Assembly (NCBI RefSeq): GCF_003344865.1
Contig: NZ_CP031165.1
Coordinates: 1,555,910 to 1,619,909 of the forward strand
DNA: 64,000 nt
Direction of reading: 5' to 3'
Source: Euzebya pacifica
GTDB lineage: Bacteria > Actinomycetota > Nitriliruptoria > Euzebyales > Euzebyaceae
Position 1 is the stretch's first letter. Each line of letters starts with the position of its first letter. The notes beneath the pieces were generated by a model. The model saw only the letters and a list, made by a program, of their open reading frames with translations, was not told the origin of the DNA and did no database searches. Made by a program: the position numbers and the translations under genes. Below are positions 56,425-62,158 of this stretch, piece after piece.

Positions 56425-56892
56425 ATGGCGAAGAAGACCAAGTCCGACGCGAACACGATCGCGGTCAACCGTCGTGCCCGCTTCGACTACGACATCGACA
56501 CCACCGTCGAGTGCGGCATGGTGCTGGTCGGGACCGAGGTGAAGAGCCTGCGTGCGGGCAAGGCCTCGATCGCCCAGGCGTTCGCCACCGTGCGCGACGG
56601 CGAGCTGTGGCTGTACCAGGCCGAGATCGCCGAGTACGAGTTCGGCAACCGCAACAACCACGAGATCCAGCGGCGTCGCAAGCTGCTGGCCAACCGTCGT
56701 GAGATCGCCGCCATGGAGATCTTCACCCAGGAGCAGGGGCGCACCCTGGTCCCGATGAAGATGTACTGGAAGGACGGCAAGGCCAAGATCCTGATCGGGC
56801 ACGGCGTCGGCAAGGCGCAGCACGACAAGCGTCGGGACCAGGCCAAGAAGGACGCCCAGCGCGAGATCGACCGGGCGCTGCGGCACCGCTGA
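56425..56892 (+). CDS. smpB: SsrA-binding protein SmpB
   Basis: SmpB carries tmRNA into stalled ribosomes for trans-translation. The 155-residue length and motifs fit: TIAVNRRARFDYDIDTTVECGMVLVGTEVKSLR, the LIGHGVGKAQHDKR region and a basic C-terminal helix (RRDQAKKDAQREIDRALR) that enters the mRNA channel. A TACCGT box six bases upstream indicates a leaderless message. Its RNA partner ssrA is 2.4 kb downstream, separated by a gene on the other strand. Confidence 0.97.
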   Translation: MAKKTKSDANTIAVNRRARFDYDIDTTVECGMVLVGTEVKSLRAGKASIAQAFATVRDGELWLYQAEIAEYEFGNRNNHEIQRRRKLLANRREIAAMEIFTQEQGRTLVPMKMYWKDGKAKILIGHGVGKAQHDKRRDQAKKDAQREIDRALRHR

Positions 56893-56923: not shown

Positions 56924-59107
56924 TCAGCCGAGGACGGCGGTCGCCCCGAACCCGGCCACGAACGCCATCAGCTCCTGGGCCTCCATGGGCTTGGCGAACA
57001 GGTAGCCCTGGACCGACTGACAGCCGAGCGCCTGCAGCTGCGAGAGCTGTTCCTCCGTCTCGATGCCTTCGGCCACACAGTCCAGCGACAGCGTGCGCGT
57101 CAGGTCGATGATGGTCTTGGCGACGGCCGCGTTGCGCTGGTCGTGCAGCTCGTTGATGAACGACCGGTCGATCTTGAGGATGTCGATGGGCAGGCGCCGG
57201 AGGTAGCTCAGCGAGCTGTAGCCGGTCCCGAAGTCGTCGATGGCGACGGTCACCCCGAGATCGCGCAACAACCCGATCAGGCTGATGCGATGGTCGTCGT
57301 CGACGAGGCCGGACTCGGTCAGCTCGAGGATCAGCCGGGCAGGTTCCAGCCCGCTCTGCGCGAGGAGGTCTCGCACGGTCTCGACGAACGCCGGGCGGAG
57401 CTGCAGGCCGGAGACGTTGACGCCGATCTTGAGGTCTCGACCGGTCACGTCCCATTCGACGGCCTGCTGGACGACCTGGCGGATGGCCCAGTCGCCGAGC
57501 TCGATGATCTGTCCGGACTCCTCGGCGATCGGTATGAACTCGTCGGGCCGGACGTTGCCCCGGGTGGGGGACTGCCAGCGCATCAGGGCCTCGGCGCCGA
57601 TGACGATGCCTCGGCCGGTGTCGACGAGCGGCTGGTAGACCATCCGGAGCTCGTCGTTCTCGATCGCCTGGGCGAGGTCGGCGGTCATGCGAGCCCGGTC
57701 GACCAGCGCGGCGCCCATCGCGGCGGTGAAGACCTCGACACGGTTGCGGCCCTCGCGCTTGGCGGCCTGCACGGCGAGGTCGGCCTCGCTGAGCATGTGG
57801 TCGTGGGTGCCGTCGAGGCGCAGCTGGTCGAGGGACCGGTGGCTGACGCCGACGCAGACGCTGACCTGCTCGCTGCGGGCCGCATACCGGAGCCGTTCCG
57901 CCACCTCCGCCACATCCGCGGGCTCGTCGGCAGGGACGATCACGGCGAACTCGTCACCGCCGACCCGGAAGAGGGTGTGGGTTCCCACCGCGGTCTCGAG
58001 GCGTCGGGCCATGGACCGCAGGACCTGGTCGCCCACGGCGTGACCGTCACGGTCGTTGATCCGCTTGAGGTGGTCGACGTCGAGCAGCACGATCCCCAGG
58101 CCAGAGGACGGCGCCGCCCGCATGGCGGTGAAGGTGTCGTGGAAGGCGGAGGCGTGCTCCAGCCCCGTGACGGAATCTCGCCTGGCCCGGAACCGCAGCT
58201 CGTCGAAGGCGTCGGTCATCCGAAGCGCCGAGGCGACATGTGCGGCGTAGACCTCGAGGACCTGGACCATCGACGGGTCGGTCCGCATGGGGGCGGTGTC
58301 GGCGAGGAGCAGCAGGTCACCGGGATGGCCGCTCCGCAGCGGGACGGCGATCCAGGAGCGCAGGCCGGCGTGCGCCAGTCCGGCGTCGTCCCCGTTGGCG
58401 GAGGGCGCGCCGTGGGTGTAGACGCTCACCGTGCCACCGGTCCAGCCGGCGATCACGTCCAGCTGGGTGTCCTCCAGGTGGTCGAGGATGGGCGATGCCG
58501 GTCCCCAGCTGGCGGACCTGATCCGACCGCCTTCCACCCGACGGACCAGGGCCGAGCTCGTGCCAGCGAGTCCGGGTGCCCGCTCGGCCGCAAGGTGCAG
58601 GATCTCGCCCGGGTCGCGTGCCGTCGCGAGGTCTGGGGTCTCACGTGCCAGCGCCTGCCACGGCGAGTCCTGGCCGGGACCGCCGACGGCCTCGATGGAC
58701 GCCTCGAGGTCCGCAACGATGGTCATGAGGTGGACGAGGTCGTCGTCGGACAGTCCGACGCAGGACTCGATGGCGAACACGCCGACCACTCGGCTGCGAT
58801 ACCGGATGGGGATGCAGACCTCTGCGCCGGTGGAACCGCCCGTCGGGACACGCCCGTCGGTCGCGACGTCACGGACGACGGTGACCTCGCCGCGGGAGAA
58901 GGTCGTGCCGAGGATCCCGACCTGGGGTGGGATGCCGTCGTGGACCCGATCGAAGCCACGCTGGGCGAGGCACCGAAGTCGCTTGGCTCGCTCGACGTAC
59001 ACGCCTGCCCGCGGGAAGCCGGCATCAATGACCCGGTCGACGGCGTCGCCGGCGATGGCCTCGATGGTGATGGCGACCGCAAGCGGCGGCGGAGGAGAGT
59101 TGGTCAT
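56924..59107 (-). CDS. GAF-GGDEF-EAL cyclic-di-GMP protein
   Basis: The 727-residue protein controls the second messenger cyclic di-GMP. Two N-terminal GAF-like regions (about 15-150 and 165-305; VCIPIRYRSRVVGVFAIES and AVPLRSGHPGDLLLLADTA) precede a GGDEF cyclase domain with an intact VGGDEF (near 384) and an EAL phosphodiesterase domain with EALMRW (near 506) and DDFGTGYSSLSYL. Both catalytic sites look intact. The start at 59107 has no ribosome site or clear -10 box; the upstream frame lacks domain character. It lies between smpB and ssrA on the other strand, with an inverted repeat in its upstream region. No membrane helix is seen. Confidence 0.92.
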   Translation of the reverse strand: MTNSPPPPLAVAITIEAIAGDAVDRVIDAGFPRAGVYVERAKRLRCLAQRGFDRVHDGIPPQVGILGTTFSRGEVTVVRDVATDGRVPTGGSTGAEVCIPIRYRSRVVGVFAIESCVGLSDDDLVHLMTIVADLEASIEAVGGPGQDSPWQALARETPDLATARDPGEILHLAAERAPGLAGTSSALVRRVEGGRIRSASWGPASPILDHLEDTQLDVIAGWTGGTVSVYTHGAPSANGDDAGLAHAGLRSWIAVPLRSGHPGDLLLLADTAPMRTDPSMVQVLEVYAAHVASALRMTDAFDELRFRARRDSVTGLEHASAFHDTFTAMRAAPSSGLGIVLLDVDHLKRINDRDGHAVGDQVLRSMARRLETAVGTHTLFRVGGDEFAVIVPADEPADVAEVAERLRYAARSEQVSVCVGVSHRSLDQLRLDGTHDHMLSEADLAVQAAKREGRNRVEVFTAAMGAALVDRARMTADLAQAIENDELRMVYQPLVDTGRGIVIGAEALMRWQSPTRGNVRPDEFIPIAEESGQIIELGDWAIRQVVQQAVEWDVTGRDLKIGVNVSGLQLRPAFVETVRDLLAQSGLEPARLILELTESGLVDDDHRISLIGLLRDLGVTVAIDDFGTGYSSLSYLRRLPIDILKIDRSFINELHDQRNAAVAKTIIDLTRTLSLDCVAEGIETEEQLSQLQALGCQSVQGYLFAKPMEAQELMAFVAGFGATAVLG

Positions 59108-59156
59108 GGTGCGTCCACTCGCCCCATCGGCGCGTCCGTGTCGAACTTGAGGTCCT

Positions 59157-59185
59157 CTTGGCAGTCGTCCGCCGAGGGTGCCAAG
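59157..59185. promoter_or_regulatory. Inverted repeat upstream of the GGDEF-EAL gene and ssrA
   Basis: CTTGGCA-N15-TGCCAAG lies between the divergent GGDEF-EAL gene and tmRNA gene. It may be an operator; no regulator is visible. Confidence 0.4.
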
Positions 59186-59290
59186 AACCGCTTCGGTGTG
59201 GTTGCAGGATGGCTGGAGACTGCTACGTTGAGTGGCTCCCGCCATACCCGGGCGGGACGATCGACAACTGCATAGCGACCTTCGATCTCC

Positions 59291-59645
59291 GGGGGCGACT
59301 GGTTTCGACGGGTGTCGGTCGACTTCGAGAGAGCGAGCCGAGGATGTAGGGCTGCCTCGTTAATCCGCTCTGCAACCTATTAGGTGCCGAAGACAACTTC
59401 GCCCTGGCTGCTTAACTAAGCGCCTGTCCGCCCGAGCCACCGCCTGAGGCAAGGGGTCGGACATCGCAATCAGGCTCCACCGCACAGCCGTCTCCATGGG
59501 CTGAGCGGGACACTTAATCGTGGGGTACGGCGGAAGGCAGATCTGGACCAAGGAGGCCCCCGCCCGACAATTTTCTTGGTCCTACGCTCGTAGCGCTCTC
59601 GAGGACGAGACATTCGGACGGGGGTTCGACTCCCCCCGCCTCCAA
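59291..59645 (+). ncRNA. ssrA: tmRNA (transfer-messenger RNA)
   Basis: The RNA rescues stalled ribosomes and tags their products for proteolysis. The 5' end (GGGGGCG, with GACTGGTTTCGACG next) pairs with the 3' acceptor strand CGCCTCC at 59638-59644, with one G-U pair. A T-arm (59621-59637) with loop TTCGACT precedes it. The tag frame runs from GCC 59386 to stop TAA 59413, giving AEDNFALAA after the charging Ala; TAGGT stands before the resume codon. The CCA end is not encoded (the sequence reads AAGA after the acceptor). The mRNA-like part includes CCTCGTTAA. Length is 355 nt before CCA addition. Confidence 0.93.
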
Positions 59646-59777
59646 GACGGCTTGATGGACCACGGTCCTCGAGACGTCTTGCGGGCGTTCAGCTCTGACT
59701 CGGATGATCGTATTGTTCAGAACCTCGCGCAGGCGAGGCGAGGTTGGCATGGAAGCCAAGAGGGCACCCTCGGATGC

Positions 59778-60581
59778 ATGTCCGTGGAACCCCTCGTTGA
59801 CCAGTCGGTCTCGACCGACGAGCTGGTGGTCCCCAGCAGCGCCCTGGGTGGCCTGCGTCGGCTGAACCTCGTCATGGGGTTGCTGCATGCGGGGTCAGCG
59901 GCCGCGATGCTCGTGCTGTCCAACGACTTCGCCATCCCGATCACGGCGACGTTCGCCGACGGTCCGCCGGGCAGCCCGCTGCCGGCCGCCGAGACGCTGT
60001 TCGAGCTGCCGCTCGGTCCGGCCGTCGCTGCCTTCCTCATCCTGTCGGCCATCGCCCATTTCGTGGTCGCCTCGCCGCTGTGGTTCGGTCGCTACGCCCG
60101 TGACCTCGCCAGCGGCATCAACCGCGCCCGCTGGGTGGAGTACTCGTTGTCCGCCTCGTGGATGATCGTGCTGATCGCCCTGCTTCCCGGCATCACCGAC
60201 GTCGTCGCCCTCGGCGCCCTGTTCGCCGTCAACGCCGGCATGATCCTCTTCGGCTGGATGATGGAGCTGCACAACCGGCGGCTTGCCGAGACCCGGTGGA
60301 CGGCGTTCGTCTTCGGGTGCGTGCTCGGCGTCGTCCCCTGGGCGCTGATCGGCTTCCAGGTCATCGGTGCTGGGTCGGCGGTCCCCACCTTCGTCTACGG
60401 CATCTTCGTCAGCCTCTTCGTGTTCTTCAACTGCTTCGCCGTGAACCAGTGGCTGCAGTACCGCCAGATCGGTCGGTGGCGCGACTACCTCTTCGGCGAG
60501 CGGGTCTACGTGTGGCTCAGCATCACCGCCAAGAGCGTCCTGGCGTGGCAGGTCTTCGCCAACACCCTGATCCCCACCTGA
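59778..60581 (+). CDS. Heliorhodopsin
   Basis: Heliorhodopsins are seven-helix retinal proteins with the N terminus inside the cell, opposite to other microbial rhodopsins; their role is unsettled. The 267-residue protein has seven hydrophobic helices and the family hallmarks: counterion Glu121 in RWVEYSLSASWM of helix 3 and the retinal Schiff-base Lys252 in SITAKSVLAWQVF of helix 7. The usual GERVYVWLS precedes helix 7. The ATG at 59778 gives the right N terminus (the frame to 59520 runs into the tmRNA gene). TTCAGC-N17-TATTGT (59689-59717) is a possible promoter. No retinal or carotenoid synthesis gene is in the window. Confidence 0.9.
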   Translation: MSVEPLVDQSVSTDELVVPSSALGGLRRLNLVMGLLHAGSAAAMLVLSNDFAIPITATFADGPPGSPLPAAETLFELPLGPAVAAFLILSAIAHFVVASPLWFGRYARDLASGINRARWVEYSLSASWMIVLIALLPGITDVVALGALFAVNAGMILFGWMMELHNRRLAETRWTAFVFGCVLGVVPWALIGFQVIGAGSAVPTFVYGIFVSLFVFFNCFAVNQWLQYRQIGRWRDYLFGERVYVWLSITAKSVLAWQVFANTLIPT

Positions 60582-60613: not shown

Positions 60614-62158
60614 TCAGCGGCCCAGCTGCCCCAGGTCGATCGTGCGCACCGACTGTGCGACGTCGATGACCTCGTTGATGAAGTCCTCCTGCGCCCCGTG
60701 CTTGGGGTCCTCACGGGTGTCGACGGCGAAGGCCACCAGTAGCCGGGCGGCCCGACCGTCGTCCTTCAGCCGAAGGACCCGTCCCAGCCGCTGGATCATC
60801 TGCCGCCGTGTCCGGAACGCGGCCAGCACGAGCGCCAGCTCGGCATCGGGCACGTCGACCCCTTCGTCCAGCACCCGGGGGGCCACGACGACCTGGAGGT
60901 TGCCGTTGCGGAACTGCGCCAGGCGGATCCGACGCTTGTCCTTCGCGAGGTCGCCGTGGATCTCCTCGGCGGGAACGCCGTGGCGCCGCAGCGCGACGGC
61001 CGCGAGCTCGGCCTGCTCGACGGTGTCGGTGAAGACCAGCCCCCGCGTGCCGTCGGTCGCCAGCGACGGCGCAAGGGCATGGACGACCTGCAGCTTGGCG
61101 TCGGCCTGTGCCGCCACGTCTCGACGACGGCGCAGGGCGGACAGGAACGCGCGTGCGGCCACGACCTCGCGCCGGACCTTGGTGTTGGGCCTGCCCTCGG
61201 CACCGGCGGACAGCGCCGCGGCCGCGGCGATCAGCTCCAGCGGAGACTTCGGCAGCCCGTGGGCGACCAGCTCCTTGCGGTGCTGCCGGACCTGCCCGTC
61301 GGCGTTGTCGTAGGCGGACCGTTCACCGTCGGTCAGGGGCACGCCCACGAAGGTGATGTCGAACGGGGCGATGACCCCGTCGGCGGCGGCGTCGGCGAAG
61401 GAGTAGGCCTGCACGACGCCGCCGAAGTAGGGCGCCAGCACCTCCACCAGGCCCTCGTCGTTTCGTTCGTAGGTCGCCGTGAGCGCCAACCGCATCGCGA
61501 ACGCTGGCTTCAGCGCCTCGCCCCAGGTGGGCGCCCCGTAGCGGTGGGCTTCGTCGGCCACCAGCAGTCCGACGGCCCCCGCGGGGAGGTCCACGGGCAG
61601 CGCGGCCGCGGAGTGCGGGGTGGCGATGACCACATGGTGGTCGTGCAGGTCGTCGGCCCGGCCGCCACCCAGCTGGCCGACGCGTGCACCGGGGACCAGC
61701 TCGTGCAGCTGGCGTTGCCACTGCGTCAGCAGGTCCAGCGTGGGCACGATGACCAGCGCACGGCCGTCCTGCGCCAGGCAGGCCCTGATGGCGGCGATGG
61801 CCAGCCGGGTCTTGCCGGTCCCTGTCACCGCCTCGACCACGCCGCTGCAGCCGGCCTGTGCCCACGCCGCGAAGGCCGCGATCTGCCAGTCGCGCAGGGC
61901 AAGGCCATCGAGTGGCCCGTTGGACGGCACGACCGGCGCCTCGGGAGCGGTGGCCGCGGGTTCGTCCAGCAGGATCCAGGTCGGTTTGCCCAGCACGTCC
62001 TCGCGGTGGAACCGTGCGTCCCTGACCAGCGCGCGCTCGAGCACCGCTCGCGAGGCCGAGACACCCGACGCTTTCACCGCCCTGACCAGCCTGGGCGTGG
62101 GCAGGCCGTCGGGGTTGTCGGCCAGCAGTTCGGCAGCCACGTCTTCCACGGTTCGCAT
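60614..62158 (-). CDS. XPB-like superfamily 2 DNA helicase
   Basis: The 514-residue protein is a superfamily 2 helicase of the XPB/ComFA-like type. Motifs seen are Q-like LRDWQIAAFAAW, Walker A TGTGKT near residue 113, motif Ia, DEAH (VADEAHRYG) near 203, LTATYER, then in the second domain LVFTDTVEQAEL, HGDLAKDKRRIRLAQFRNG, VVVAPRVLDEGVDVP and the arginine finger region RTRRQMIQRLGRVLR. An extra N-terminal domain of about 85 residues precedes it. The ATG is eight bases after a TAGCGT box. A DNA-repair role is likely but not shown. Confidence 0.92.
   Translation of the reverse strand: MRTVEDVAAELLADNPDGLPTPRLVRAVKASGVSASRAVLERALVRDARFHREDVLGKPTWILLDEPAATAPEAPVVPSNGPLDGLALRDWQIAAFAAWAQAGCSGVVEAVTGTGKTRLAIAAIRACLAQDGRALVIVPTLDLLTQWQRQLHELVPGARVGQLGGGRADDLHDHHVVIATPHSAAALPVDLPAGAVGLLVADEAHRYGAPTWGEALKPAFAMRLALTATYERNDEGLVEVLAPYFGGVVQAYSFADAAADGVIAPFDITFVGVPLTDGERSAYDNADGQVRQHRKELVAHGLPKSPLELIAAAAALSAGAEGRPNTKVRREVVAARAFLSALRRRRDVAAQADAKLQVVHALAPSLATDGTRGLVFTDTVEQAELAAVALRRHGVPAEEIHGDLAKDKRRIRLAQFRNGNLQVVVAPRVLDEGVDVPDAELALVLAAFRTRRQMIQRLGRVLRLKDDGRAARLLVAFAVDTREDPKHGAQEDFINEVIDVAQSVRTIDLGQLGR

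Follow-up and report, generated by a model that had tools for sequence, protein, structure and literature searches.

A gene for heliorhodopsin, a light-absorbing membrane protein, begins just behind ssrA, the gene for tmRNA, in Euzebya pacifica. This raises the question of whether the two genes are neighbors for a reason and, if they are not, how the heliorhodopsin came to be there, what its role is, and what supplies its retinal. We examined the locus within a window of 64,000 nucleotides (the whole stretch of DNA that was analyzed), taken from a genome of 6.37 Mb on two contigs. We are fairly confident of the reading that a canonical, functional heliorhodopsin (HeR), probably a light sensor and not a pump, lies by coincidence in an interval of variable content that runs from ssrA to a helicase gene; the ancestor that this species shares with its sister species probably acquired it. 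The features of the locus are as follows.

56425..56892, plus strand: smpB (Pfam SmpB).
56924..59245, minus strand: gene for a GAF-GGDEF-EAL protein, located across ssrA from HeR and assigned by Pfam and synteny; the sister species alone keeps it there.
59291..59644, plus strand: ssrA (tmRNA with the tag AEDNFALAA), found by ARAGORN; its link to HeR is not conserved.
59690..59713 (ends approximate), minus strand: 3' remnant of an HNH endonuclease gene (YDHPSQS, then stop), of which the sister species has an intact copy.
59778..60581, plus strand: HeR gene, 267 amino acids from an ATG start, supported by PF18761, NF038020, PDB matches, fold, and dN/dS.
60614..62158, minus strand: gene for a DEAD/ResIII-type helicase (Pfam), convergent to HeR and forming the constant distal boundary of the variable interval.

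The Pfam profile search matched the HeR protein to PF18761 over profile positions 1-242 of 242 (323.4 bits versus a cut-off of 26.7), and the NCBIfam HeR equivalog NF038020 scored 315.7 bits versus 100; hmmscan returned PF18761 alone, with no match to PF01036 (Bac_rhodopsin). The PDB search found the solved heliorhodopsins (E about 2e-71 for the 48C12 match, and about 1e-70 for both 48C12 and TaHeR), with an identity of about 49% to 48C12 and 46-51% across the solved 48C12 and TaHeR sequences. The initial annotation had described a complete heliorhodopsin with a Glu121 counterion site and a Lys252 retinal site and had proposed an alignment to 48C12; profiles, PDB matches, and alignment agree with that description, in that Glu121, in helix 3, corresponds to E107 and Lys252, in helix 7, to K241 (48C12 numbering). 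Both residues are invariant across 50 aligned homologues, and equivalents of 48C12 residues H23, S76, H80, E107, S237, and K241 were all found. The protein is an ordinary, canonical member of a known family. Its ATG and the 17 bp preceding it are identical in the sister species; a longer same-frame start at 59520 is not credible because it falls within ssrA.

The AlphaFold2 model (pLDDT 92.5) has seven helices and an A-B loop that forms a beta hairpin, and Foldseek ranks 1 to 10 are all HeR structures (best TM 0.87), with type-1 rhodopsins far behind. Lysine and arginine residues number 13 across the four regions predicted to be cytoplasmic and 0 in the regions predicted to be outside, a distribution in keeping with the predicted inverted topology, in which the N terminus would lie in the cytoplasm. 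Between the HeR genes of the window and the sister species, 65 of the 78 base differences fall at third positions (dN, 0.020; dS, 0.414; dN/dS, about 0.05). HeR is under strong purifying selection and is apparently a working, functional gene.

Next, we looked into whether the position behind ssrA is informative. HeR does follow ssrA directly and on the same strand, as first annotated; the gap is 133 bp, not the 132 bases given then. The upstream neighbor is an RNA gene and the downstream neighbor is a convergent helicase gene, so HeR appears to be monocistronic, without an operon partner. Predicted promoter sharing with a neighbor has been reported for only 38.6% of helR genes (PMC11109279), which makes solitary HeRs common. 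Simple promoter and terminator scans of the ssrA-HeR region returned nothing, the former not covering actinobacterial promoters and the latter being crude.

The initial annotation had also suggested that the neighbors, ssrA foremost, might be informative and that gene neighborhoods should be compared; the comparison spoke against this. A tmRNA gene lies near HeR at 2 of 113 HeR loci, those of the window genome and the sister species, a count that only bounds the frequency, as many of these loci are short or clipped by contig ends. The gap in the sister species is 649 bp versus 133 bp and contains an HNH_3 endonuclease gene on the opposite strand. In a congener without HeR (G002), ssrA is followed by an HNH gene (72% identical), a CBS-domain gene, and then the same helicase gene, and in the congener G003 the interval between ssrA and the helicase gene holds genes for an uncharacterized protein as well as a protein kinase and an ABC-type ATPase. 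The helicase gene is thus found downstream of ssrA in the sister species, G002, and G003 as well, and the same interval in the congeners is occupied by unrelated genes. Because the HNH gene follows ssrA in the sister species and G002 and its last eight codons remain in the window, the tight spacing is probably the result of a deletion; the simplest reading of these sequences is that the HNH gene was probably lost in the window's lineage, which moved HeR close to ssrA. An HNH_3 endonuclease gene was seen directly after ssrA in two congeners (L035:9105-9635 and L192:7793-8290).

Clustering of the genes around 114 HeR loci revealed no recurrent family beyond large promiscuous ones. It did place an SDR gene upstream of HeR in some Chloroflexota and in G003, an SDR-HeR group that had already been reported (PMC11109279). 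A literature search for HeR together with tmRNA found no relevant paper. From gene order, ssrA and HeR look like neighbors by chance in a variable interval, and a tempting but false lead, a heliorhodopsin tied to tmRNA, is thereby removed.

How HeR entered this interval was assessed across the class as sampled, where 35 of 66 genomes have a HeR match, in one case to a broken gene. The HeRs of the class form several separated clades in the tree, and a single clade for the two types within the genus is rejected (AU test, P value = 0.004). The second type, that of G003, lies away from ssrA, 70 bp before tRNA-Leu; although it belongs to the same family and occurs in the same genus, it is 51% identical to the window HeR and falls in a separate clade (AU test, P value = 0.004), and by its place in the tree it is a separate acquisition. 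The two genomes differ further in that G003 has Blh and two type-1 rhodopsins and the window genome has neither kind. For the window species and its sister, HeR was probably gained by their common ancestor. The pair sits on a long stem, so that the tree gives neither the donor nor the date of the gain. HeR may alternatively have been lost in the other congeners and not gained by the pair.

tmRNA genes are often integration sites, and we considered whether the downstream flank of ssrA is such a site, with HeR having arrived as the cargo of a mobile element. The contents of the interval differ congener by congener and include an HNH endonuclease gene in two of them; elsewhere, a congener has an unrelated HeR next to tRNA-Leu, a relative has a broken one next to tRNA-Arg, and HeR is also carried on a small mobilizable Lactococcus plasmid. 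These points are consistent with integration, which we nevertheless regard as doubtful: there is neither an integrase nor a second copy of the ssrA 3' end around HeR, HeR is nearer to tRNA and tmRNA genes than expected only at a P value of about 0.05-0.1, and G002 has the HNH gene without HeR, so a joint arrival is not required. A search for att-type repeats around ssrA and HeR found none, and no HeR was found in phage records.

Several of the loci surveyed bear description. At five separate loci (L034, L036, L038, L076, and L125), less than 400 bp separates HeR from a tRNA or tmRNA gene, which is only marginally above chance. The decayed copy (L038:9526-9901, genome G046), just downstream of tRNA-Arg, has lost its N-terminal part and has a broken frame and one stop. 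The plasmid copy (L206, NZ_CP141705.1, 5592-6368) is on a 10.5-kb mobilizable plasmid of Lactococcus petauri, between an IS6 transposase gene and a recombinase gene.

As to what the protein does, its photochemistry can be proposed from family membership. All-trans retinal would be bound at Lys252 with Glu121 as the counterion in a protein whose N terminus would face the cytoplasm; illumination would isomerize the retinal, and a slow conformational change through the arginine-rich cytoplasmic loops would be passed on to a partner encoded elsewhere. The retinal itself may be taken up, or endogenous beta-carotene may be converted to it by a lone RPE65-family oxygenase or by an enzyme not recognized as such. 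Published HeRs modulate glutamine synthetase (PMC9529153), photolyase (PMC9769723), or an ABC transporter (PMC11109279), and HeR has been linked statistically to two-component genes (PMC8612252); judged by these precedents, the window HeR is most likely a slow light sensor whose partner is encoded at an unlinked site. Proton transport by a viral HeR (PMC9448325) indicates that not every HeR is a sensor.

The supply of retinal was evaluated at the level of the whole genome. It had been noted that the window holds no carotenoid cleavage gene and no other rhodopsin gene and that retinal must come from elsewhere. In the whole-genome searches, the window came out free of Blh, RPE65-family, and type-1 rhodopsin genes, and the deduction holds, where elsewhere means another part of the genome or a source outside the cell. 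The genome check for blh and crt genes that had been proposed came out positive for crt and negative for Blh. A GGPPS-CrtI-CrtB cluster and a CrtY-type lycopene cyclase are present, so beta-carotene is probably made; a CrtYc/d-type lycopene cyclase is absent from the genome. No Blh was found in the genome by a search that detects Blh in 11 relatives, one of them in the same genus, and there is no type-1 rhodopsin (PF01036) in the whole genome. In G003, the Blh gene adjoins a type-1 rhodopsin gene (L205:8870-10688), and the second type-1 rhodopsin gene is elsewhere.

One RPE65-family oxygenase is encoded in the genome, at 5.33 Mb, 3.7 Mb from the window, and it could make the retinal of HeR in place of Blh. 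The gene is present in both species with an ssrA-linked HeR and missing from the HeR-free G002, its product keeps the four iron-binding histidines (H183, H231, H294, and H474) in conserved motifs, and the beta-carotene route is in place. Across the 66 genomes, HeR is associated with the presence of Blh or the RPE65 family (15/17 versus 20/49; Fisher's test, P value = 0.0007, with kinship ignored). Against this supply stand the closest solved enzyme, which is a 9,10-dioxygenase, and a score below all specific NCBIfam cut-offs. Moreover, the gene adjoins a thiolase gene, and homologues of it are clustered with genes for an importer, a CoA ligase, a thiolase, and an aldehyde dehydrogenase, so that it looks like part of the catabolism of an imported compound. 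Neither enzyme family was found in 20 of the 35 HeR-bearing genomes, including G039, which is a single contig, and HeR in the absence of genes for retinal synthesis has been reported for Ca. Actinomarinales (PMC7771536); a HeR that lacks a known retinal enzyme is therefore not unusual. Taken together, we think it unlikely that the oxygenase supplies HeR, and improbable to a further degree that HeR and RPE65-made retinal, with both genes present or absent together among congeners, give this actinobacterium, which has no pump rhodopsin, a light sense based on HeR alone. Uptake of retinal from outside is possible. The conserved cluster itself (L208:5-10539, also L207, L209, L210, and L211) comprises an RPE65-family oxygenase, a lipocalin-like protein, an aldehyde dehydrogenase, a thiolase, a CoA ligase, and a branched-chain-type importer.

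A partner closer at hand would be the GAF-GGDEF-EAL protein across ssrA, with which HeR could set cyclic-di-GMP by light. Both genes flank ssrA in the window genome and the sister species, the GAF-GGDEF-EAL gene is not at that place in G002 or G003, and GGDEF and EAL domains occur near some HeRs (PMC8612252); we nevertheless find this very improbable, given that the gene is a divergent, separate transcription unit, that the genome has many GGDEF/EAL paralogues, and that the gene is not a recurrent neighbor in the 114 HeR loci. Least of all do we favor a functional adjacency, whether by read-through from a strong ssrA promoter or by light sensing tied to ribosome rescue, because the short same-strand gap, the lack of a terminator-like site within it in a simple, crude scan, and the ssrA-HeR order kept in the sister species are set against the longer gap and opposed HNH gene of that sister, the lack of tmRNA near any other examined HeR locus, and congeners with the same ssrA but no HeR there.

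A slow sensor with an unlinked partner, placed behind ssrA by chance, is the reading that we retain. The locus offers a clean case of a solitary HeR, with no pump rhodopsin and no Blh and with a beta-carotene route in the genome, and the congeners that lack HeR or gained it separately are a useful set for testing the role of HeR and the source of its retinal. Compared with the solved structures of 48C12 (PDB 6su3 and 6uh3) and TaHeR (6is6), the window HeR shares the seven helices, the A-B hairpin, and the key residues (TM 0.84-0.87); it differs in an N-terminal tail that is about 14 residues longer than that of 48C12 and in short gaps within the D-E and E-F loops. The actinobacterial and firmicute HeRs with published partners, AbHeR with glutamine synthetase, TfHeR with photolyase, and OcHeR with OmrDE, belong to the same family and have the same key residues, but they work with their operon neighbors, whereas the window HeR stands alone.
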